Below are positions 24,601 to 45,803 of a stretch of DNA of 64,000 nucleotides, piece by piece. The first letter of the stretch is position 1, and each line of letters starts with the position of its first letter. Where the stretch lies: the NCBI GenBank assembly GCA_947561715.1, contig OX387197.1, positions 6,817,001-6,881,000 on the forward strand, read 5' to 3'. A program made the position numbers and the translations under genes. This DNA comes from Ascidia mentula (lineage: Eukaryota > Chordata > Ascidiacea > Phlebobranchia > Ascidiidae). Below the pieces are notes generated by a model, which was not told the DNA's origin, searched no databases, and saw only the letters and a program-made list of their open reading frames with translations.

Positions 24601-26734
24601 CGGCATGCCACCGCGTCATGGGAGAATTCTTACGTCATAAAGAGCGACCTTGTGTCTGAGGCCACATGTCCGGGCGTGTGATCTCAGGGCCGCTGACACC
24701 ATTACATCCCCACTGGGCGCATATTTCAGTGCTACCGCATTTACTTTGCTACGCAAAGCAGCTGCCTTTCCGCCGTTGAAATATTTTTCTGTTGTAAACG
24801 ATGGGAATGTGGGGTCCGTGGGATTTCAATAGTAAACGCTTCACTATCGCGGCGGGGAAATTGCGACACGGCACTGAAATATTACGCAAACTACAAACGC
24901 TGATGTGCTGCAAGAGTTACGCAATGTTAATGTGACGAAGTTACTACCAAAGGCCTGAAGATTTCGGATTAGGAGTTTCGTAAAAGCTTAAGATGACGTT
25001 TTGTGTCGATCCAGCGCAGTATATTATTTTCCACTTAATCTAATTTTATACCAATCTACTTACTCCAAGGATCGAAAATCAGTACAGCATTTTGTTAAAC
25101 TTGCTGCATTGCATTATTTTTCAGTACATTCCTAAATTTGCGAAGATCCTCAAGACGTTTGATTTTCTCAACAATCGAACGAACAACTGGATGATCGCAA
25201 GGTATATCATGTGGATTACTGATAAATAATTTATCTTACGCAAACAATTTCGCCATAGTCACAATAATTAACAAATATTTTTATGAATCGAAATTCGAAA
25301 TTTTAAGGTTGCGTTTGAAAAACACAGCTTGTTTTTAATGCTGCCTCACGCAACCCAGCGACTTTTATGATACCCAGGAGCAAAGAGCATCGGGAAACCT
25401 ACATACATGGAGTCGTTAGGGACATTGTCGATACTTACATCGCCGAAAGCATAGATGATCCGACACATACCATTGATGAAGAAGACGTCGTTTCCTTGAC
25501 GACGGACTTGTTTGGCGCCGGCCAGGACACGCTCTCTACTGTCATGCTGTGGATTTTTGTGTACTTGGTCTATTTTCCAGATTACCAACAACGGGTAAGA
25601 GAAACCAACGCAGATAAGTTATCAACATAAGCTTTAGGTTGCTCATTGGTTTAGTGAGAACATATCGATTTGACTTCTTCGCCAAAAATCCCATCGCCGT
25701 TATCAAACAAACCTTGTGGAGTTCCTTTTAAATGTTATCAAACAATTTTCCTGCTATATTTCTGTTATCGTACAACAACTTGTAATGTACGCAGAGAGAA
25801 TGTCATTAAGACCACAGAATTCAGAGTTTGGGGTCATACAAGGCAACTTGCAGCTAAATGTCTTGTTATTAGAATGTTATTGACCTAATGATCTTTTTCA
25901 AGCATTACTTTCACCACCCTATGCCACCTTCTCGACTTTTTACAACAGTTGTTGCTTTAGATAAAAGACGAGTTGGATGAACATCTCAAGGGTCAAAGGT
26001 TGCCGACCATCGACGACCGCAAGCACTTTCCATTCACGGAGGCAGTTCTGCACGAGATCTTCCGCCATTCGTCCTTCACTCCCTCCACTATCCCGCACGA
26101 GACGACTGAGCCGACAACATTAGGTCAGTACCACATCCCGAAGAGCACCATCGTGTTCGTGAATCAATACGCGGCGAATCGTGACGAACACGAGTGGTCG
26201 GATCCGGATACATTCGACCCGTACCGGTTCCTCAAAGCAGACGGGACGTTGATCCACAAGCCCCACGAACGTTATCTTTCATTTTCGACCGGCATTCGAA
26301 AATGCCCTGGAGGCGATATCTCGCGACTATTGCTCATACACTTTATCGCCACGTTTTTCAGCGTGGCAGAAATTGTGCCAGAGAGCGGACACACTCCGAC
26401 GCTAGAGGGCGTCTACAACCTCTCTATGAGGCCCAAAGAACTCAAATTCAAAGCTCGGCTTCGACATAGGCGAGTTTTTGAAACTGCCTTCGTGCATCTC
26501 GAAAAGGTGGCCGTACCAGTGCACAAGGACAAGGTCGACATCCTTGAAAGCGAAAACATCAAACCCGATCCCGTGCACGTAAACGGATGGAAGAAGACTC
26601 TCGAGACTGAATTTTCCGATAACGACTTTGAGACGATGGAGAAAGTTAGCCGAGTAATGCGGAAGCGGAAATCGAGAAAGTTGCCTTTTGATGATATAAA
26701 CGGCAACCAGATTTACGGCCTTTATCCTGAATGA
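9646..26734 (+). CDS. CYP1-like cytochrome P450, right copy, complete, six exons, 600 aa
   Basis: Exons: 9646-9854, 10323-10758, 20962-21051, 25125-25201, 25378-25594, 25961-26734; all GT-AG with consistent phase. Residues 1-30 are a membrane anchor, followed by the PGPFPWP hinge. The I-helix oxygen-activation motif AGQDT lies at about 318-322, the ExxR motif (EIFR) at 375-378, a DPYRF segment near 429-433, and the haem loop FSTGIRKCPG has its thiolate cysteine at about 458. These mark a working-looking microsomal P450, and the FGAGQDT and haem-loop wording fits the CYP1 family. It is longer than usual: about 87 residues follow the normal P450 end near residue 513, a basic and acidic tail without cysteines. 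Intron 2 (10.2 kb) and intron 3 (4.1 kb) are very large, while intron 4 is 176 bp. The gene is head to head with its paralogue at 1097-2189. The reaction would be NADPH-dependent oxidation of aromatic or lipid substrates; the actual substrate cannot be read from sequence. Confidence 0.93.
10125..10163 (+). repeat. Fragment matching the tail of the tRNA-like repeat at 19.6 kb
   Basis: These 39 bases match 19594-19632 with about five differences (shared string CTGGGCTGCCAAG). It lies in CYP1 intron 1 and lacks the tRNA-like head, as expected for a truncated SINE copy. Confidence 0.5.
11451..11940. promoter_or_regulatory. Mirror-conserved intron-2 block, right copy
   Basis: Inverted partner of 319-748, about 700 bp into intron 2 of the right CYP1 gene. 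A frame of about 58 codons ends at the same stop in both copies (TGA at 11620-11622 here). I count nine substitutions in that frame, six of them synonymous. Both copies have AG just before the start of conservation, which could be a splice acceptor. It is either a conserved enhancer or a small unannotated exon; I favour the enhancer. Confidence 0.6.
14790..14799 (+). promoter_or_regulatory. DRE match in CYP1 intron 2
   Basis: TTGCGTGCCA fits KNGCGTGMSA fully. It lies in a GC-rich island (about 14.6-14.95 kb) within the long intron 2 of the right CYP1 gene. Confidence 0.4.
15787..15796 (+). promoter_or_regulatory. DRE match in CYP1 intron 2
   Basis: TCGCGTGCGA is a full consensus match, 86 bp from another full match at 15883-15892 and about 300 bp from a core-only TCGCGTG near 15490. 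Confidence 0.45.
15883..15892 (+). promoter_or_regulatory. DRE match in CYP1 intron 2, second of a close pair
   Basis: TTGCGTGCGA is a full match to KNGCGTGMSA. With the site at 15787-15796 it forms the tightest pair found in the window. Confidence 0.45.
17093..17102 (+). promoter_or_regulatory. DRE match in CYP1 intron 2
   Basis: GTGCGTGAGA is a full match to KNGCGTGMSA in the same intron. A related but imperfect site (ATGCGTGCGA) lies near 17284. Confidence 0.35.
19477..19640 (+). repeat. tRNA-derived SINE candidate
   Basis: The first 66 bases fold like a tRNA from the D arm onward: an A box TAGCTCAGTTGG, an anticodon stem of six pairs with the 7-base loop CTGGTTA (anticodon GGT), and a T stem GTGAG/CTCAC closing the loop GTAAAAC. 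The acceptor strand does not close, so it is not a working tRNA gene. It is followed by a unique tail whose 39-bp part recurs at 10125-10163. This head-plus-tail layout is that of a tRNA-derived SINE. Confidence 0.6.
21052..25124. other. Intron 3 of the right CYP1 gene (4.1 kb)
   Basis: A GC-rich island spans about 21.7-22.55 kb, with open but unrecognised frames on both strands. A near B-box string (GATTCGAGCCC) near 23236 has no foldable tRNA around it. A CTCF-like motif lies at 23668-23681. No exon is supported. Confidence 0.5.
23668..23681 (-). promoter_or_regulatory. CTCF-like motif
   Basis: On the minus strand CCGCTAGGTGGCAC fits the core CCGCNNGGNGGCA known from bilaterian CTCF. A single match in intron 3 of CYP1; whether the organism keeps CTCF is unknown to me. 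Confidence 0.3.
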
Positions 26735-34209: not shown

Positions 34210-37200
34210 TTATTTTATTGCAGAACATCTTGCTGCACTTTTGCTTCCAAATTGTGTTTTTTGGGAAGCCTGTTTAGTCACAGTCTTGCCATGAATGTGG
34301 AGTCGTAACTTAATGTACTTTTTTACAATTTTTGGAACAACCTCGTGGCAGTTGGGAAACTTGACATTTTCTGGCAGGGCTTCAGTAAGTAAATATTGAA
34401 GTACATCTTTTCGTCTTGCCACACCAACAACAATTTGGCGAAACTTGCTCTCTGCATATTTCAAAACTTCCAATAATTGACTGGAAGGATGACAGAGGTG
34501 AGTTGTTGTTTCATTATGCATTAAATTATTGCTGGGGGTAAATGATCTGAAAAGGGTTAGAAATCCTTCCTGACTGGGCATTGCATCCTCACTTTGGCAA
34601 TATAATGTGCATGTTGCACAATCAACTTTTTTAAGGACCTCATGGATTGCCCAACCACAAACATAATAAAACCCCTGTTCTTCAGAACTTGACAGCAAAG
34701 ATGAAGCTGTATCTGCCAGGATTGTCAAGTTGCTTCTGTCGTCATCTACAAGGCCTTCAGATGGGTCACAGCTATTTCCCTGGGATTTTAAAAAACTGAC
34801 TAAATGTGGAGTGTCATCTGGCTCATAGTTTCCTTTGCTAGTTGTTTGCATCATTTGTGACAGGCAAATCATTCGTAGACTGAGCCTAAATTGTGTTGGC
34901 TTTGGGTGTGACGATCCCTTGTTGCGAACTTGTGAAAATAAGTTTTCAAGGGCATCTTGGGTTAGCCGCCCGGACATTAAAAATTTGTAGTTGCCATGAA
35001 CGACAAGCTCCTGGTGCAAAGCTAACAAACTAGTAGTGGCCAATTTGATTCCTGATTGTACAGGCTTCCATGAACTGGAAATATGTATTTTTTGAAATGT
35101 GTCCAACATCTGAAAATAATTTTATGTTAATTTAAATGCGGATATGCAATATTTTTGGTAAGTTTTTTGTAACAATTATAGTATTATTGATATTGTTTTA
35201 CTAAAATAATATTTTACCTCTGTTAGCTGGTCTAACTTTTCTGCCGAATTTGGAAAAAGGGCATCCTGCATGCATCGACAGTTCATGATGTCGAACCAAT
35301 TATTTATGTACTGACAAAAAAATCCAGTTGTCAGTGCTTCAGGATAAAGTTTGTTTATTGCAACCATCGTGCGAATGGCTGAAGCAGTTGAATGACTCAA
35401 TACCTAATTGGAATTTGAAGGTGAGGACAGATAGAAAAATTGAATATTATTTACTGAGTTACATATATACCTGAGCTGCCATATTCACCCTCATTTTTTG
35501 ATATTGTGTTGGATGAATATGGCTTTTTGTCAGCTTCGGGGCTAGCTTAAACTCACCTTCCTCTTGATAATTAATAAGTTTTTCCACCCAACTTTTTGAA
35601 ACCTTAATAAAAACATTTATTACTTTTAGAACTTGAATTAAGTTACTGAATGTTTGTGCTAGCTGGGTTAAGTTAGTTTTGTGCAAACCTGATTTGTGGG
35701 AAGGTTGTATTTGGTCACAACACTGTCACTTAAATACATATCATGCTTTAAAAAAGCACTCCTTAAGTTTTTTAAAAGGTGAGGCACATCTGGCATGAAG
35801 TAAAGAAGTTGATCAGGCAGTGCAGGATGGTGAATGCAACATCTAACTTCATCTCTGACCATTTGTAATGCAGAAAAAGGTAAAGATGAGTTTTTTGCTA
35901 CTGTTTCTTTATCAAAAAATGAAACAGGACATCACCTGTTGCTAACAACTCCAGCAGACTTCCACATTGCTTGGTTGCAAGCCCCCATGTCACTAATCAC
36001 CACTTTGACTGTGAAACCTCTTATGGCGAGCTGTTTAATAATTTCCTTTGTTGTTTTCCATAAAATTTCACCACTAATTGAAGTGCCAGTGTAAAAATAT
36101 GCTGTTAAAAAACACAACATTACGAATATTACACATTTAAATTTTTTACCGAAATAACCAACCAACTACTTGTTTCCAGTGTGTTGTGATGCCTTTTGCC
36201 ATAAAACACAACACATGTGATGCCATTAAATTTCCTGACTTTGGCATCATTTCAGGGCTAACGTATCCCACAAATTGCTTGATGCCGGGATCGTACTCAA
36301 CGGCTGTTGCAATTTGAACCTCGTCGAGCAGTAAACTACAAACACGCTCGTGCTCTTCGGTCGCCTCCAACTTGGATTTCATCCAGTCCAAGACTACATT
36401 TTGTATTCCCGGACTCATCCCAAGAGGCACAATTCTATTGCAGAGCGTTGAGTACGAGGGCAGTGGGTACGTAAGCGATCTTAGAAACTCGTATCTGCGT
36501 GAGATCAATACGCGGTTTCAGTTAAAGCTCAGTACAACAAACTTGACATTGTTAGATACCCTTGCTTGCCAACTGCGCATCTAATTTTTAGTGCAACTTT
36601 GATAGTCTCGTCTGACCACTCAGATCTCGAACTGTTCACTGTTTCGCCTTGCAAAGCCTTCATTTGGTCATCATGCAAAAATTTCGGCAAATTAGAAGCC
36701 ATGTTTTGCAGTTTTGCATTCAAAAGTGTGATCTAATTTTGAAACAATAAATACAGAGCAAACAAATATTTATGTTTGTACCTGTCGCTTCAATTGCCTA
36801 TTTTCTGTTTCGTATTTTGAGCAATTTGTACAAGTCACTTGTACTGCTTCTGTTGGTTCTGTTCTTTCTGCACTTTCAGCTTCTGATTTGCTGTATTTGT
36901 GGTCGTGACTGCATGCTAAATTAATAAATACGTTTACTATCTGGGCCTAATGTTTAGCTTAGTTCCCTACTGGAAAAATCTCCTTGATTGCTGATATTCC
37001 TGTGCCGTTTCAAAAGGCGCCTTTGACTAGAAAGTTTAGCTGGGCAGTTTGGAACATTAAATAATGTTGGCACGGCTCCCAACTTCAATTTTTTCAGGCC
37101 GTCTTTTCTATTTTGTTCCAACTGGTTCGGTTCAAAATGTTTCTAAACTCACTAGGGTTAATAATAACTGATCTGTGCACGGAGTATCTTTCAGTCAAAC

Positions 37201-37675: not shown

Positions 37676-38291
37676 TAACGCACGTAATTAGACTTGATTC
37701 GGAATTCGTGCTAAGATTTTATTTAGGGTATGGTGAGGAAAATGATCAGGATGAAAACACCAGGACTGTAGATTTGTTATCCCCGCAGTGTTCTTCATAC
37801 GCAGCCTATACAAGAAATGGGCATGTGACAATGCTTCCATCTTCCATGTTAAAAATATTTTTGCAACAAAATTGTTTTTTTCAAGTTGCAAAGACACAAA
37901 AAAATTGCTAATCGGTGGTTTTGCTCATCTTTTTGTGTTATAATTTCTTGTAATATTGACTGACCTCAAATTTGTAATAAGACACATAAAAGAGTTAAAA
38001 ACTAGGCTACTAAACCGAAAGAATGCAGCAAACTTTAGCAAGCGCTCGGAAAATCTATAAAAAACATACACAATCAATTGTCAATTGATAAAATCTTTCA
38101 TGCAAATTACAAACTTTCCAGTCTGGCTCTGGTGTATGTGCAATGTAAAATAAGCAATACACGTGACATATGTCAGTTTGAAAAGTTTAATTTCATTTTC
38201 TTAGGCCAGTAACAGTGTGTTCGAGGTTGAGAACCTTATGATGAGTACTGGTTTCATACTTTTTTCCAGCCTAAACTTTGTTAATTTCATA
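37676..38291. other. Upstream region of TOMM6
   Basis: AT-rich promoter region. Two pyrimidine-rich AG acceptors (ending near 38202 and 38269) precede the TOMM6 ATG and could serve a leader intron or spliced-leader addition. Confidence 0.45.
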
Positions 38292-38550
38292 ATGTTTGGT
38301 GGATTAAAACCGCCTTCTAGTGCACCACCACCAAAAGGATTCAAGAACAAGGTGAAAGACTGGTTCACCAGTGACACCAAAAGGCAAGATATTAGGTTTT
38401 AAAAACTTTTATTTTTTAAAATTAAATGTTTTTGCCCACAGGAAGCTTCTCATCAACATTGCACTTTTCGGGGCTGGCGTCTTCCTTACTGCTGCATTCA
38501 AAGACCTTACTTTTGACGCCCCATCACTACCACAACCTGGAAGTGCATAA
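38292..38550 (+). CDS. TOMM6: TOMM6-like subunit of the mitochondrial outer-membrane import complex
   Basis: Two exons, 38292-38395 and 38442-38550, with a 46-bp intron; product 70 residues (human TOMM6 has 74). The N-terminus is short and basic. The second half, KLLINIALFGAGVFL followed by a Leu-Phe-Asp-Ala-Pro tail ending PQPG, aligns with the human TOMM6 tail-anchor RRNLILNLGLFAAGVWL and PQPG end. TOMM6 is a small tail-anchored subunit that stabilises the TOM pore. A GC donor a few bases upstream (AG|GCAAGA) also keeps frame, but the GT donor after TTAG preserves the RQDIRK match to human RNDFRR. The next gene starts 6 nt after the stop. Confidence 0.82.
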
Positions 38551-38556
38551 ACTATA

Positions 38557-39244
38557 ATGCTTTTGCAAAAACTGTGTCTCACTTCTGGCTGGCTCATGAC
38601 AAGATCTTTATTGACTTCCATACAATGCCTTGGGAAAAATTCAACAGATTTACATAACATGTTACTTGCGGTAAATGCAGTGACCTTCGGAGTTCATGCA
38701 ATTGATGCGTTTTTAGAGTTTCCAGCAGAATCGCTTGATCTTTATTTGTATGGGTATGTGAAAACCATTGTTTTAGAATGTAGTTTTTTAATTTGTTGAT
38801 GTGGTTAATGACCAGCCTTGCAAAATATTGTTGATTTTACTTGAAAAGTTCAAAACATCACAAACAATTGTAATAATGTAGAATATAAAATTTTGTTGAT
38901 CTTTGTTATGTTGACAAATACATATATTTTCCAGACTTACAATACTGGGAGGGTCACCAGCTTCTGCTGTAGCAATGTTTTTGTTTCAACATAAAAGCAA
39001 AACTCCTCGGTTTGAATTGAAGTTTTTGGCCATTTGCGGCATCCAGTGCTTGCTGCTTATGTCGTTTGTGCAGTTTAGAGATCCTGGCTACAGCATGTCA
39101 CTTCAACTTCATCATGCGCAAGATGAACTGAGTTTTGCTGTCAGGAGTTTTTTTGAAGCATTGTTTGGTCGACTGCGAGACAATACCAGAATGTTTTTCT
39201 TTGAAAAATCAACACTGCTAGATGTGTTTTATCCTCGATGGTAG
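38557..39244 (+). CDS. DUF1294-family small membrane protein, second cistron after TOMM6
   Basis: Exons 38557-38753 and 38935-39244, 168 residues. The middle carries the DUF1294 signature: LLAVNAVTFGVHAIDA, then LTILGGSPASAVAMFLFQHKS-x-x-x-RF, then a hydrophobic helix (LKFLAICGIQCLLLMSF), giving probably three to four membrane segments. DUF1294 proteins are best known from bacteria, often beside a cold-shock domain; their function is unknown. A C-terminal tail of about 55 residues has no match that I recognise. The ATG lies 6 nt after the TOMM6 stop, so both are most likely on one transcript. AATAAA follows the stop directly (39247). Co-transcription with TOMM6 hints at a mitochondrial role, which is inference. 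Confidence 0.75.
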
Positions 39245-39937
39245 AAAATAAAAGTTGCTTTGTATGAACCATGTTTATTTGTATAGAGAAAATATGTAAA
39301 ATGTGTGATGTATCATTCCAAACGGAGTATAACAAAATGTGGGTTGATAATATTTACAGACCCAATACCCAAACACATATTTTGATCCTTTAAAACACCA
39401 TTAAGTAAGTCATACCTTACTTTTAAACTGTAAACACTGCCAGAGTTACATGCTTTATTTTACCAAGTTGAGACTGCAAATAGTTGTTTGTAGTTTTACA
39501 TTTTCAAAACAATCGATTATCTTGAAGTGACCTGCACTGTGTGCTAACCTTGCCCTCACTACATTTTTACCCTCTGCTAATCCACCATGGAGATAACAAG
39601 CTCTTTTAACAAAAAACACATTCAGGACTTTTTTGGTACATTTGGCTGTAGCTGTAGGTTTGCAAGTTCATTACTTTGCTTCGTATGGACTTGGGGCATC
39701 ATAGAGTCCGGTACATAAAATGATTTCTCAGATCAGGTTGCATGGAAACACATTGCAATGTTCTGGCATTATTTTGTGTAAAAATTTGTACTAGAATTGC
39801 TGGATTAAAAGTTCTAAAATCGCATGCATTTCATCACAAACCAGTAAAAGAGGGTTTTTATTAATTCTTTTGTCTTCGCATGGAAAAGTGTAGTAATGCC
39901 ACCAAGCACACTGAGCGAGATTTTCATCCAAAAGTAG
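39245..39937. other. Convergent 3' regions of the TOMM6 and RNF146 units
   Basis: No coding frame. AATAAA for the plus unit is at 39247; an AATAAA for RNF146 lies on the minus strand at 39862-39857, about 75 nt after its stop. Confidence 0.6.
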
Positions 39938-41140: not shown

Positions 41141-41676
41141 CTAATTTTTTTCTCTTCCTTTTATGCGCAGATTTCTCTGGCGTTGCATTTCCTCACTGAA
41201 GTCAAGGTGTTCATTGCTGTAACAAATAAATCAGAAGGTCAATAACAATCCTAGATAATTAAAAAAGCTAAAGCATCCTTCATTATACAATGCTACATTA
41301 AATAAACTAGCTTGAAGCTAGTTTTAGCCTACATGGTAAAACAAGTAAGGCCCACTGTATCTTCATTTTTCGTGCAACAAAATGTTTCAAATGTAAAGGA
41401 TGATGATTAAATTCTGCAAAACATATATAAAGCAGTAAATTTGTGAGGTGTCACTTACACATACAATCCAAGCTTTCGAGTGAATAACATCAACTGGTCA
41501 ATGTCTTTCATAGGAGGGTAGTAATTGCAAAATTCCTTGTTTTTGGAGCGAGGTCTGCCTGCAAGCGCTCGTGCAATTTCTTTCGATGACCGTTTGTAGA
41601 CAGGGTCAAATTCGTGAAAAATTCTGGCACTGAGTCGGGCTATATTCAATGCATACTTCGGTGAAACACCTTTCAT
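41141..41676 (-). CDS. MRPS33: Mitochondrial ribosomal protein S33 (mS33)
   Basis: Exons 41676-41459 and 41216-41141 (minus), 97 residues (human 106). YALNIARLSARIF, the YYPP motif (human YPNH region), LMLFTRKLGLYVNEHLDF and the basic tail ending KGREKN align along the length of human MRPS33. It is a small-subunit protein of the mitochondrial ribosome. An upstream in-frame ATG at 41835 would add 53 residues; I prefer 41676 because a T-rich AG acceptor (near 41708) lies between the two and because it gives the family length. Confidence 0.9.
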
Positions 41677-43835
41677 TCTAACACCACCATTTAACTTCCT
41701 AACACCCCTGCTAAAAAGAGGTTTGGAACTCGTCAAACACCGTTTCTTAAAATATAGGCCAACGTGAAAAGGGTTAAACAGATAGCAGTGTTTAAGGTCA
41801 ACGCGCGTTGCTCGACAAACAACGGAATTATGCATAAACAATAAAACTTAAGCCACACCTTAGTCACGTCGCTAGAGAGCAGGTCACACATTTATTTGCT
41901 TTTTTTTTAACAAACCGGAATTTTAAAACCTGGGTTATCCTGGGCACGAATCCAGACCAGGTTTTCATTTGATAAACAAAAATCGCAAAAAATAAAAAGT
42001 GATAGGAGTTTATACCGCTCGACAAATTACGAACAAAAGTCACTGAGCTTCAGACAGTAACAGTGGTGGGAGTCAAATATTTTCACAACCAGTTCTCTCA
42101 CTAGCAGCGTGTCTTAATGACCCAGGATCGATATATATAGACCAAAATAAGACACACAAACATAGACAAATTTTTAATGTTTTTTTTGCAGACACCGACG
42201 GCCATTTGTTCATACGAGGATATTTATGCATTGTAAATGCCCGTGCTTGTAAGTTGCAACTTTACTATAATTATTGGGGCTATTAATAGCATATTATTAA
42301 CTCGGAAATGCAGTAAAATAACCACAGCCGTCTTGCGAAGGTCAATAAAATTCCAAGAACCGATTCGCACATATGTTCGTCTGACTCTCACCGCTTGTTA
42401 TGCACAGTGTATCGAGCAGTAACGTGTCACCAAATCACATGCAGCTGGTAATTGTAGTACTGATCTCTAGAGTTTGGCACAAAGGAGAATACATAGAAAT
42501 AACATTGCATAGGGAGACTGGTAAAAAAATATTCAACGCGGATTACCGGTTCCGTGTGGTGGATCAAGAGGATTATATTAATAACATCCGTGTGGCAGAG
42601 CTAGACGACTATTTAAAATAACATCAACGTGGTGGAGCTAGAGTACTATACTAAATAATATCCACGTGGTAGAGCTAGAGGACTATTAAAAATAATATCC
42701 GCGTGGTGGAACTAGAGGACTATACTAAATAACATCCACGTGGTAGAGCTAGAGGACTATTTAAAATAACATACACGTGGTGGAGCTAGAGGACTATACT
42801 AAATAACATCCACGTGGTAGAGCTAGAGGACTATTTTAAATAGTATCCGCGTGGTGGAACTAGAGGACTATTTTAAATAACATCCGCGTGGTGGAACTAG
42901 AGGACTATACTAAATAACATCCGAGTGGTGGAGCTAGAGGACTATTTTAAATACCTGTAAGCTCTGCGTGAAGGACTATATTGAAATTTAATTATGTGGC
43001 TTCGTTCTTATCATATTATGGCACAAACACGTATGCACAATCCCCATGTATTTTCACTGCGTCTTCGTGGTTGTCCAAAACTTGACCACTGCATGACCTC
43101 TGAATACATGGATGGGTAACTTCATCAAATTTAAATGTGTTTCGATCCCCGACAGAAACATTTGCTTCGCAGTCACCGATAACTTCAAATGAAATGTGGT
43201 GTCGTTTAGCCTGCATGTTTTCAAACCTATACGTACTTGCTGACAAAAATCTTTCAAGTCGAATCACTTCGATGATTGGTAATCATTATAATTATTACTA
43301 GGTATACCCAATTAGTGCTGCAACCGGAAGTTTATCAGTTGAAACAATTTGCCTGAAGTAGATCTTCCAGTTATACGAGCCGCATTAATTTTGTACAAAT
43401 CTTGTCTGCTATTCCAACATGCAACAGCAACGCAACCTTCCTATCAGCAAGTCGATTGTATCGTCACGCTTGCATGATTATGCTACAGCTGTAAGCAGCA
43501 TGCGTTGCTGTTCCTGTGGTGTTGCTGCATTCCGGAGTCAGAGATGGACTTTGGCTGCATTCTACCCTAATGAAAGTACATGCAGCATTTTGAAAGGAAC
43601 AGTAACGTGCCTTCATCAAAACAGGTTGCTTAGTTTTGAGGTTAGATAAATGAAACGTGATGTCTTACAGTAAGTAAACAACTGACTTGCTGCACAATAG
43701 ACTACTAGATATTTAACGAAATGGAACATATTACATCACTGGTTTTCTAGAGCAAATAAAGAAGCTTTGTTGTATTTCAGAAATATTCTAGTTAGATGCT
43801 GCTATTGTGCAATGTAACAAATTAAAATAGGTACA
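41677..43835. other. Region between MRPS33 and the beta-galactosidase gene, with a minisatellite
   Basis: Contains the promoter of the MRPS33 unit, the tandem repeat at 42551-42950 and the upstream region of the GLB1L-like gene. The minus frame at 43016-43267 opens with GTG and is unrecognised. A T-rich AG acceptor at about 43780 precedes the next ATG by 55 nt. Confidence 0.5.
42551..42950 (+). repeat. Minisatellite, about 37-bp unit, about 10 copies
   Basis: Unit: ATAACATCC, then ACGTGGTAGAGCTAGAGGAC, then TATACTAA or TATTTTAA. Copies alternate loosely between the two endings, suggesting growth by duplicating a dimer. Several copies carry CCACGTGG, an E-box palindrome. The first copies are the most diverged. 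Confidence 0.9.
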
Positions 43836-45803
43836 ATGAGAAGAATGTTAAGTTTAAGGAATCGGAAATATGTCTTGATTTTTTGCATTGGTGCTTTGTT
43901 AGTTTGGATGACGTTTGTATGGCACAGACAAATTTCTACATATTTTGATGCCACCAATCACGATGTAGCAATAAGCAGAAGAAAAGGAGTCCGTATTGAC
44001 CAGAGGGGCCTCAAAGCTGTAGGAAAAACATTTAAGCTAGATGGGGAGCCTCTCACAATAATCAGTGGGGCAATACATTATTTTCGGGTCCCAGAAGAAT
44101 ATTGGGAGGACAGACTGCTAAAGATGAAAGCTTGTGGATTAAATACAATTGAGACCTATGTTCCTTGGAACCTTCACGAGCCAACACCAAACAAGTTTGA
44201 CTTCAGTGGTAACTTGGACCTGGTTAGGTTTTTAAAGTTGGCCCAGAAGCATGACTTTTACGTTCTTTTACGCCCTGGACCTTACATCTGTTCAGAGTGG
44301 GAGTTTGGCGGATTACCCTCCTGGTTGCTCCGTGATCCTGCAATGAAGGTAAGAACAGTGTACCACCCATTCTTTGCAGCTGTTATAACATACTTTGAAA
44401 AACTCTTGCCCCTTGTGGTGCCATTACAATATTCAAAAGGTGGCCCAATTATTGCCGTCCAGGTTGACAATGAGTATGGCTCATACTACAAAGATAAAAA
44501 TTACTTGACAGCAATTAAGGTGGCCATGGTGAAATATGGGATACAGGAATTGTTATTTACTTCAGACAACGGAGACGGCATCACAAAACCCAGTTTACCT
44601 GGAGTTCTTAAAACTGTCAACTTTAAGGAAGTTAAGTCACACTTTTCAGACCTCCTTAAAGTACAGCCTGATGCACCACTGATGGTGATGGAATTCTGGA
44701 CAGGGTGGTTTGATTGGTGGGGTGATGAGCATCACACCTTGTCATTGCAAGCCTATGCTGAAACCCTGAATGAGATTTTCAGTGTTGGCTCCTCTGTAAA
44801 TTTTTACATGTTCCACGGTGGCACTAACTTTGGATTTATGAATGGCGGCTTCAGGGACCAAGGAGTTCATAAGGCAGATATTACCAGCTATGACTATGAT
44901 GCAATAATAGCTGAAAATGGAGACCTCACACTGAAGTACCATAAGACCAAGGAAATTATTGAACATTACTTTCCAAAAACCAAAAAGGAAAATGTAAACA
45001 TACCAGCACCTAGAATTCGGAAAGCCTATGCAAGTATACCAACAGACCAGTGCCTGTCTCTCTGGAGCACTCTTGAATTTGTTGAAGAACTTTCCTTAGA
45101 GTATCCCAAAGCAATGGAGATGTTGGATATAAATGATAATGCAGGACAATCATATGGTTACACTTTGTATCGTTCTGAAATACAAAGTACTAGCAGTAAA
45201 AAGATAAAAGTTGAAGGCCTTGATAATATTCATGACAGGGGCACATTGTTTATTAATCAGTTAAAAAAGGCCTTCTTATGTCCAGAAAAGGAATTTTTAA
45301 ATGTTGTTGAGCTTGCTCTGACAGATGATAACGCTTTTAAATTTGATGTCTTTGTTGAAAATGCTGGAAGAATTAATTGGGAAAACTTTGATGATCAACG
45401 TAAGGGCTTGACTGGAAAACTAAGCCTGGAAGGACAGGACATACAAAATTGGAAGGTTTTTCCTCTTGAAATGAAGCAGAAGTTTATCGAACAAATTGGA
45501 GTTGCAAAATGGTCAACATGTAAAGAACCTGAGGAGCTCAGTTCCCCACAATTTTTCTTGTTTACTTTGGAATTAGAGGATGCTCCTTATGACACATACA
45601 TTGACATGACAAGCTGGGGAAAGGGGGTTGTTTTTGTCAACGGAAAAAATCTAGGTAGATATTGGTCGATTGGCCCACAACTAGCTTTGTACCTCCCTGC
45701 ACCTTGGTTGGTTAAAGGGTTAAACCAAATCATTTTGTTTGAAGAAATAAAGTTTGCTTCTGCTCTAAAGTTTTCTACCAATCCAAAACTGACCACTGGT
45801 TAA
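43836..45803 (+). CDS. GLB1L2/3-like beta-galactosidase (GH35), single exon, 655 aa
   Basis: An uninterrupted ATG-to-stop frame with a membrane anchor at about residues 12-29 (signal-anchor). The GH35 TIM barrel follows: ISGAIHYFRVP near 70, then RPGPYICSEWEFGG. The acid/base glutamate is in VDNEYGS (about E213) and the nucleophile in VMEFWTGWFDWWG (about E286). FMFHGGTNFGF-type wording (YMFHGGTNFGFMNG) and TSYDYDA place it with GLB1L2/GLB1L3 rather than lysosomal GLB1. The C-terminal beta domains end with GRYWSIGPQ and LYLPAPWL. It would cleave terminal beta-galactose; its real substrate is unknown. Human homologues have many introns, so the intron-free frame may reflect retroposition or intron loss. 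SMYD5 starts 553 bp downstream on the same strand. Confidence 0.93.
   Translation: MRRMLSLRNRKYVLIFCIGALLVWMTFVWHRQISTYFDATNHDVAISRRKGVRIDQRGLKAVGKTFKLDGEPLTIISGAIHYFRVPEEYWEDRLLKMKACGLNTIETYVPWNLHEPTPNKFDFSGNLDLVRFLKLAQKHDFYVLLRPGPYICSEWEFGGLPSWLLRDPAMKVRTVYHPFFAAVITYFEKLLPLVVPLQYSKGGPIIAVQVDNEYGSYYKDKNYLTAIKVAMVKYGIQELLFTSDNGDGITKPSLPGVLKTVNFKEVKSHFSDLLKVQPDAPLMVMEFWTGWFDWWGDEHHTLSLQAYAETLNEIFSVGSSVNFYMFHGGTNFGFMNGGFRDQGVHKADITSYDYDAIIAENGDLTLKYHKTKEIIEHYFPKTKKENVNIPAPRIRKAYASIPTDQCLSLWSTLEFVEELSLEYPKAMEMLDINDNAGQSYGYTLYRSEIQSTSSKKIKVEGLDNIHDRGTLFINQLKKAFLCPEKEFLNVVELALTDDNAFKFDVFVENAGRINWENFDDQRKGLTGKLSLEGQDIQNWKVFPLEMKQKFIEQIGVAKWSTCKEPEELSSPQFFLFTLELEDAPYDTYIDMTSWGKGVVFVNGKNLGRYWSIGPQLALYLPAPWLVKGLNQIILFEEIKFASALKFSTNPKLTTG

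Follow-up and report, generated by a model that had tools for sequence, protein, structure and literature searches.

A closely packed TOMM6–DUF1294 gene pair in a tunicate genome and candidate routes to its second protein

The TOMM6–DUF1294 locus

The stretch of DNA analysed here (64,000 nt, hereafter the window; C1:6817001-6881000 in a genome of 196 Mb in 79 contigs) carries on its plus strand a TOMM6 gene followed by a gene encoding a DUF1294 protein. TOMM6 ends at 38550 and the second ATG lies at 38557, in agreement with the spacing of 6 nt that had originally been predicted, and the two open reading frames (ORFs) are in the same frame. In a genome-wide search, the DNA of the pair was found at a single place. 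The gene structures were read by homology, and splice sites were scored with generic acceptor and donor matrices, with ranking of the 6393 AG sites of the window. The features, in window positions, are as follows.

38268-38269, plus strand: strong acceptor AG (tttcatacttttttccag), located 22 nt upstream of the start codon of TOMM6 and, by position weight matrix (PWM), among the best 1.0% of AG sites
38292-38395 (GT donor) or 38292-38383 (GC donor), plus strand: TOMM6 exon 1
38384-38385, plus strand: alternative GC donor of the TOMM6 intron, aag/GCAAGA, in the top 0.25% of GC sites
38396-38397, plus strand: weak GT donor of the TOMM6 intron, tag/GTTTTA, equalled or outscored by 71.6% of the window's GT sites
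38440-38441, plus strand: TOMM6 intron acceptor, ranking among the best 0.6% of AG sites; a role in spliced leader (SL) trans-splicing is proposed for it below
38442-38550, plus strand: TOMM6 exon 2, with the stop codon TAA at 38548-38550
38546-38551, plus strand: CATAAA, a variant poly(A) hexamer that shares bases with the stop codon of TOMM6
38551-38556, plus strand: intercistronic gap, ACTATA, 6 nt, containing no AG
38557-38753, plus strand: exon 1 of the DUF1294 gene, with ATG at 38557 and an alternative in-frame ATG at 38659
38754-38934, plus strand: DUF1294 intron, GT-AG, phase 2, inside the domain; donor in the top 4.4% of GT sites, acceptor in the top 2.5% of AG sites
38935-39244, plus strand: exon 2 of the DUF1294 gene, with the stop codon TAG
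39247-39252, plus strand: AATAAA, the only one in 38280-39300, where ATTAAA and other variants are also present
41835-39938, minus strand: an MRPS33-like gene and then a RING+WWE (RNF146-like) gene with 79 nt between them, adjoining the TOMM6–DUF1294 pair

TOMM6 comprises two exons and one AT-rich intron ending at 38441, and would encode 70 aa with the GT donor or 66 aa with the GC donor. Compared to the Pfam family TOM6p (PF15184), the 70-aa form scored 24.2 bits (E 2.9e-5), which is under the cut-off of 27, and the 66-aa form scored 22.5 bits. The identity was accepted despite the sub-cut-off score because the TOM6 chain in PDB entry 7ck6 aligns collinearly with the protein (E 0.0011, residues 19-67 of the 70-aa form), and the original prediction most probably named this gene correctly. 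When the whole genome was searched with PF15184 at E<=10, the single match was the second exon of this gene, a weak hit of 18.1 bits (E 0.39), while an NCBIfam search with TOMM6 gave nothing relevant and one unrelated match at E 0.17. TOM6 proteins are tail-anchored in the outer membrane as part of the TOM complex; the role of this TOMM6 in mitochondrial import, like the functions of all proteins discussed here, is putative.

The two possible donors of the TOMM6 intron are of very different quality. The four other donors that were read are equalled or exceeded by only 0.1-6.9% of the GT sites, the GT donor of TOMM6 by 71.6%. The GC donor lies in an otherwise ideal context and, the C aside, outscores nearly all GT sites; GC-AG introns account for 556 of 113,879 introns in the Ciona KH models (PMC2760879). 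The strong acceptor preceding the gene may be an SL trans-splice site or the acceptor of an intron in the 5'-UTR, and SL use at 38269 is something we only infer, since candidate cis donors exist upstream at 37733 and 37399.

The short gap had been described as too small to accommodate either a promoter or a poly(A) site. Its six nucleotides indeed have no room for a promoter, nor for an SL acceptor, since they contain no AG. For the poly(A) site the statement is true of the gap itself but not of its surroundings, as the CATAAA hexamer overlaps the TOMM6 stop; this hexamer is not rare here, with a frequency of 0.59 per kb per strand.

The surrounding DNA also contains a TNP-like RNase H N-terminal domain upstream of TOMM6 (36149-36517, minus strand, Pfam E 3.2e-20), which probably belongs to a DNA transposon. 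In addition, a cytochrome P450 exon is found at 25961-26731 (plus strand), and a 661-aa open frame of glycosyl hydrolase family 35, of the beta-galactosidase type, at 43818-45800 (plus strand).

The DUF1294 protein and its relatives

The product of the second gene comprises 168 aa. Its match to Pfam DUF1294 (PF06961), at residues 64-92, lies under the cut-off of 25 (23.4 bits, E 7.3e-5). Comparison against a profile of 27 bacterial DUF1294 proteins, the kind of search that had been named as a check of the family assignment, matched residues 33-121 with a probability of 96.5% and E 8.5e-10, and in this comparison the homology to the bacterial proteins continues across the 38753/38935 exon junction. 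The protein had also been called a membrane protein, with which its three TM-like segments (residues 35-53, 64-83 and 92-114) are consistent; they correspond to the family's three long helices. An AlphaFold2 model of a Rhizobium member contains helices at residues 3-32, 40-62, 71-91 and 93-102 (mean pLDDT 89.8). Of the 15 PDB structures that matched this model, the best had an E of 2.7 and none reached E<=0.001, and the fold therefore suggests no function for DUF1294. Searches with the window protein found no relative among PDB sequences (best E 0.56) and no match in NCBIfam; among viral contigs it had no relative, and a bacterial member had one. The window protein is most likely a small three-helix membrane protein, and gene order is the one feature that would link it to mitochondria.

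Several parts of the family pattern are kept in the window protein, including N..TF....D, GG.P, A....HK..K..F and the hydrophobic segments. Of the D-K and R-[IV]-[PS]-E motif it keeps the D but has neither the K nor R.PE, and it further departs from the family in a C-terminal tail of about 55 residues. Judged by its sequence, it is a divergent member of DUF1294. Translation would start at ATG 38557 or at a later in-frame ATG, e.g. the one at 38659, which encodes Met35 and is where the family domain begins. Codon statistics are powerless to separate Met1 from Met35: the N-terminal 34 codons resemble random open stretches, with values as high in 68% of the null, yet codons 35-65 and exon 2 also look random against the same null (50% and 25% as high, respectively). 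With three K/R and no D/E in 30 residues and a modest moment, the N-terminus is weakly presequence-like.

DUF1294 is represented elsewhere in the genome, where a search with PF06961 at E<=10 gave 16 matches. Of these, 11 pass the cut-off, and the five that fall short include exon 2 of the window gene. Nine matches are clustered on contig C2 at 3.669-3.688 Mb, and eight of these exceed the cut-off (L019-L021, C2:3665001-3692000). In several members of this cluster the domain exon is preceded by an acceptor, TTTTTTAG or TTTTTCAG, and the C2 genes therefore probably have further upstream exons. The copy at C72:478418-478546 (L022) is very divergent, with a longer hydrophobic N-terminal part and loss of the histidine-lysine motif. 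Another candidate relative, L026, which had been considered for a shared intron, was dropped (genome search E 2.56, Pfam 17.7 bits).

A phylogeny of DUF1294, which had been put forward together with a possible past transfer from bacteria, gave a divided answer. The tree, built on 23 rows, places the window protein with eight copies from the same genome at a support of 93/84, short of the programme's star, yet the nearest single row by path is bacterial, a Sphingosinicella protein (L107; 32% over 79 columns). The long-branched C72 copy was placed elsewhere, and one clade of all ten copies was not rejected (p 0.335). The grouping of the window protein with the resident copies thus appears moderately supported, in a tree that is weakened by its long branches.

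The suggested transfer is weakened by these observations, and a recent event is not supported. Although the bacterial nearest row would agree with a bacterial gene having recently landed behind TOMM6, as would a Dictyostelium DUF1294 that is listed as a candidate transfer in PMC3188802, this is very unlikely given the spliceosomal intron within the domain, the resident family with which the protein groups, the location on a contig of 27.9 Mb and the occurrence of DUF1294 in Hydra and some other cnidarians (PMC7642931). An ancient transfer into some ancestor may have occurred. DUF1294 counts of 5, 1, 1, 1, 2, 0 and 0 are given for seven cnidarian genomes in PMC7642931, and the Dictyostelium paper describes its candidate transfer genes as unrecognised in characterised animal genomes. 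The sequence collections compared here hold few eukaryotes, and the spread of DUF1294 in animals is not readable from them. A fusion of DUF1294 to a cold-shock protein is noted for Stenotrophomonas rhizophila in PMC7404187.

Spliced leader, splice acceptors and start codons

Exact copies of the 16-nt Ciona SL number 2,157 in the genome (1091 forward and 1066 reverse), compared to none for the reversed control. A tandem array on C1, at approximately 15.24-15.30 Mb, holds many copies spaced 719-720 bp apart, and all three array copies that were read (L027, C1:15250001-15252000) are directly followed by a gtaag donor (gtaagc). The array unit of ~720 bp presumably differs in length from those of C. 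intestinalis and C. savignyi. Among the dispersed copies, none of the eight that were read (L001-L008) has gtaag after the SL; the exact copies L001-L006 have GTGGAG or GTGCGG in place of GTAAG and are possibly SL pseudogenes or repeats. An identical 16-nt SL is given for Ciona intestinalis in PMC7986045. On the strength of these sequences, the genome is taken as that of a tunicate with Ciona-type SL trans-splicing.

Two gene pairs served as controls. In the adjoining pair, the MRPS33-like gene (Pfam MRP-S33, 24.7 bits, just under the cut-off of 25) has a second exon ending at 41141, and an acceptor in the top 3.5% of AG sites ends 21 nt past the first stop. A genome search at E<=1e-6 with the RNF146-like query gave no matches other than the two exons of this gene, and the pair has the look of a usual tunicate operon. 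The second pair begins with URM1 (Pfam E 2.9e-36) and continues with a gene that, read by eye, we take to be CHERP-like, preceded by an acceptor in the top 2.4%. A URM1-CHERP pair has been reported within a Ciona operon (PMC2760879). The distance from CATAAA to the end of the acceptor is 46 nt in the MRPS33-RNF146-like pair and 65 nt in the URM1-CHERP-like pair. The acceptor of each of these two pairs was chosen as the highest-scoring AG of its stretch, and chance alone yields a score of >=2.8 in 17% of random stretches of 107 nt and in 32% of those of 212 nt; the control acceptors therefore fit operons without being proof of them.

A firmer point than the controls is that the TOMM6–DUF1294 stretch is itself poor in acceptors. 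Four AGs occur in 38446-38657, ending at 38503, 38543, 38603 and 38647 and ranking at 27%, 65%, 52% and 60% of AG sites, respectively. The first two fall within the coding sequence of TOMM6, and the two located between the TOMM6 stop and Met35 both score poorly. The best of the four is below the best AG in 94% of random 212-nt stretches, and the best AG after the TOMM6 stop is below the best in 95% of random 107-nt stretches. Going by these scores, there is no credible trans-splice acceptor between TOMM6 and DUF1294, and within the unit only the TOMM6 intron supplies a strong acceptor.

No AUG is found in the 216 nt between the TOMM6 and DUF1294 starts. Such a stretch is AUG-free in 4.7% of 2000 dinucleotide shuffles and in 4.2% of 946 coding stretches, or 9.4% when only out-of-frame AUGs are counted. 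As 52% of the synonymous recodings of TOMM6 (n=20000) are also AUG-free, the absence is permissive and not diagnostic. The part following the TOMM6 intron acceptor (38442-38556) is an AUG-free stretch of 115 nt, which is not rare (13.5%), and the first AUG after it in any frame is the DUF1294 start at 38557.

Possible routes to the second protein

Co-transcription of TOMM6 and DUF1294, as the original prediction had it, is the likely reading of the locus. Since no convincing splice entry was found between the genes, the second protein is probably made either via the splice site of TOMM6 itself or from a shared two-protein message. We tentatively favour the first of these routes, SL trans-splicing at the TOMM6 intron acceptor 38441, and hold it at somewhat less than an even chance, because no credible acceptor lies between the cistrons, the acceptor at 38441 is strong and the resulting leader would be AUG-free. 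TOMM6 and DUF1294 would form one transcription unit with a shared poly(A) site slightly past 39247. Cis-splicing of the TOMM6 intron would give the TOMM6 message, with the DUF1294 ORF aboard. If the SL RNA were instead joined in vivo to the same acceptor, the TOMM6 start would be lost and the product would be a normal-looking DUF1294 message, because the first AUG to be met, whatever the frame, is that of DUF1294, from which it would presumably be translated. TOMM6 exon 2 would then be coding in one message and 5' leader in the other.

In Ciona, trans-splicing often takes place at the first cis acceptor, and the donors paired with such acceptors are weaker, according to a study whose TSS-seq set holds 56,126 acceptor sites (PMC11155486). 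The TOMM6 intron, with its strong acceptor and weak or non-canonical donor, has the configuration of these TS-1stAS genes, from which it differs in that trans-splicing would yield a product encoding another protein and that a further acceptor is present upstream at 38269. To carry those observations over to the present pair is an extrapolation, because operon genes were left out of that study. Two counterpoints to trans-splicing at 38441 are that the GC donor at 38384 may be efficient and that the strong upstream acceptor at 38269 could draw the SL instead. More doubtful is the further-reaching proposal that the single acceptor acts as a splicing switch picking one of two unrelated proteins, TOMM6 by cis-splicing and DUF1294 by SL trans-splicing, and to our knowledge there is no precedent for it.

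The second route, a bicistronic mRNA in which DUF1294 is translated by leaky scanning or by reinitiation 6 nt past the TOMM6 stop, is a serious contender although we consider it rather unlikely. It would account for the in-frame 6-nt gap, the lack of AUGs between the starts, the lack of a credible intercistronic acceptor and the position of the sole AATAAA of 38280-39300 after DUF1294. Precedents appear in reports on green algae, including a TOM22 locus, with AUGs reduced before ORF 2 (PMC11892635), on human transcripts encoding two conserved proteins (n=14; PMC13303939) and on reinitiation on bicistrons in selected yeast (PMC11952965). The pair resembles the leaky-scanning bicistrons of green algae in its small first ORF, short gap and absence of AUGs before ORF 2, but differs from them in that the AUG context of TOMM6 is not weak and that the genome has an SL. 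The contexts of the two starts, CATAATGT versus TATAATGC, both read ATAATG with A at -3, which is favourable, and as they share this context little leakage would be expected. The absence of AUGs, moreover, is explained by the protein composition of TOMM6, as seen in the recodings, and, at 66-70 codons, the first ORF is longer than is favourable for reinitiation. PMC11892635 describes reinitiation as working best with uORFs of few codons.

We consider an ordinary SL operon improbable. TOMM6 would then be cleaved after CATAAA and DUF1294 trans-spliced at one of the weak AGs at 38503, 38543, 38603 or 38647, the latter two requiring a start at Met35 or another downstream AUG. The beginning of the family domain at Met35 would suit such a start, the 58 nt from CATAAA (38546) to the end of the AG at 38603 lie between the 46 and 65 nt of the control pairs, and Ciona operon genes have been described as directly abutting (PMC2760879). 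However, these AGs rank far behind the acceptors taken as real (0.6-3.5%), the first two would cut into the TOMM6 coding sequence, and CATAAA is not a rare hexamer. Compared to the Ciona SL operons (Satou et al. 2008, PMC2760879), the pair is alike in its shared strand, tight packing and identical SL sequence, and its 6 nt from stop to ATG falls within the intergenic distance of <100 bp, whereas no credible SL acceptor separates the cistrons and the strong acceptor is that of the upstream gene's own intron. The Botryllus fuhc gene pair (PMC3691228), also from a tunicate, has linked transcripts with no SL detected on the second gene, but differs in its 227-bp intergenic region, its many exons and the rarity of the linked transcripts.

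Still less probable is independent transcription of DUF1294 from a promoter within TOMM6 (in the intron or exon 2), which the AT-rich intron might accommodate, but for which only 288 nt are available from the 5' acceptor at 38269 to the DUF1294 ATG. Readthrough of the TAA from TOMM6 into DUF1294, which share a frame, has no supporting signal that we know of.

In its organisation the TOMM6–DUF1294 pair represents a variant of the tunicate operon already known. No earlier report of the pair was found in the open-licence PMC literature, a scope in which absence weighs little. In the accepted view, an SL acceptor between abutting genes resolves tunicate operons, and this pair, which is without one, poses the question of how the second protein is made. 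It would be a compact system in which to ask whether the SL, when trans-spliced to internal cis acceptors, leads to new messages or to by-products, and also of whether such chordates translate bicistronic mRNAs, while it brings to notice DUF1294, of unknown function, as a multi-copy family in a tunicate.
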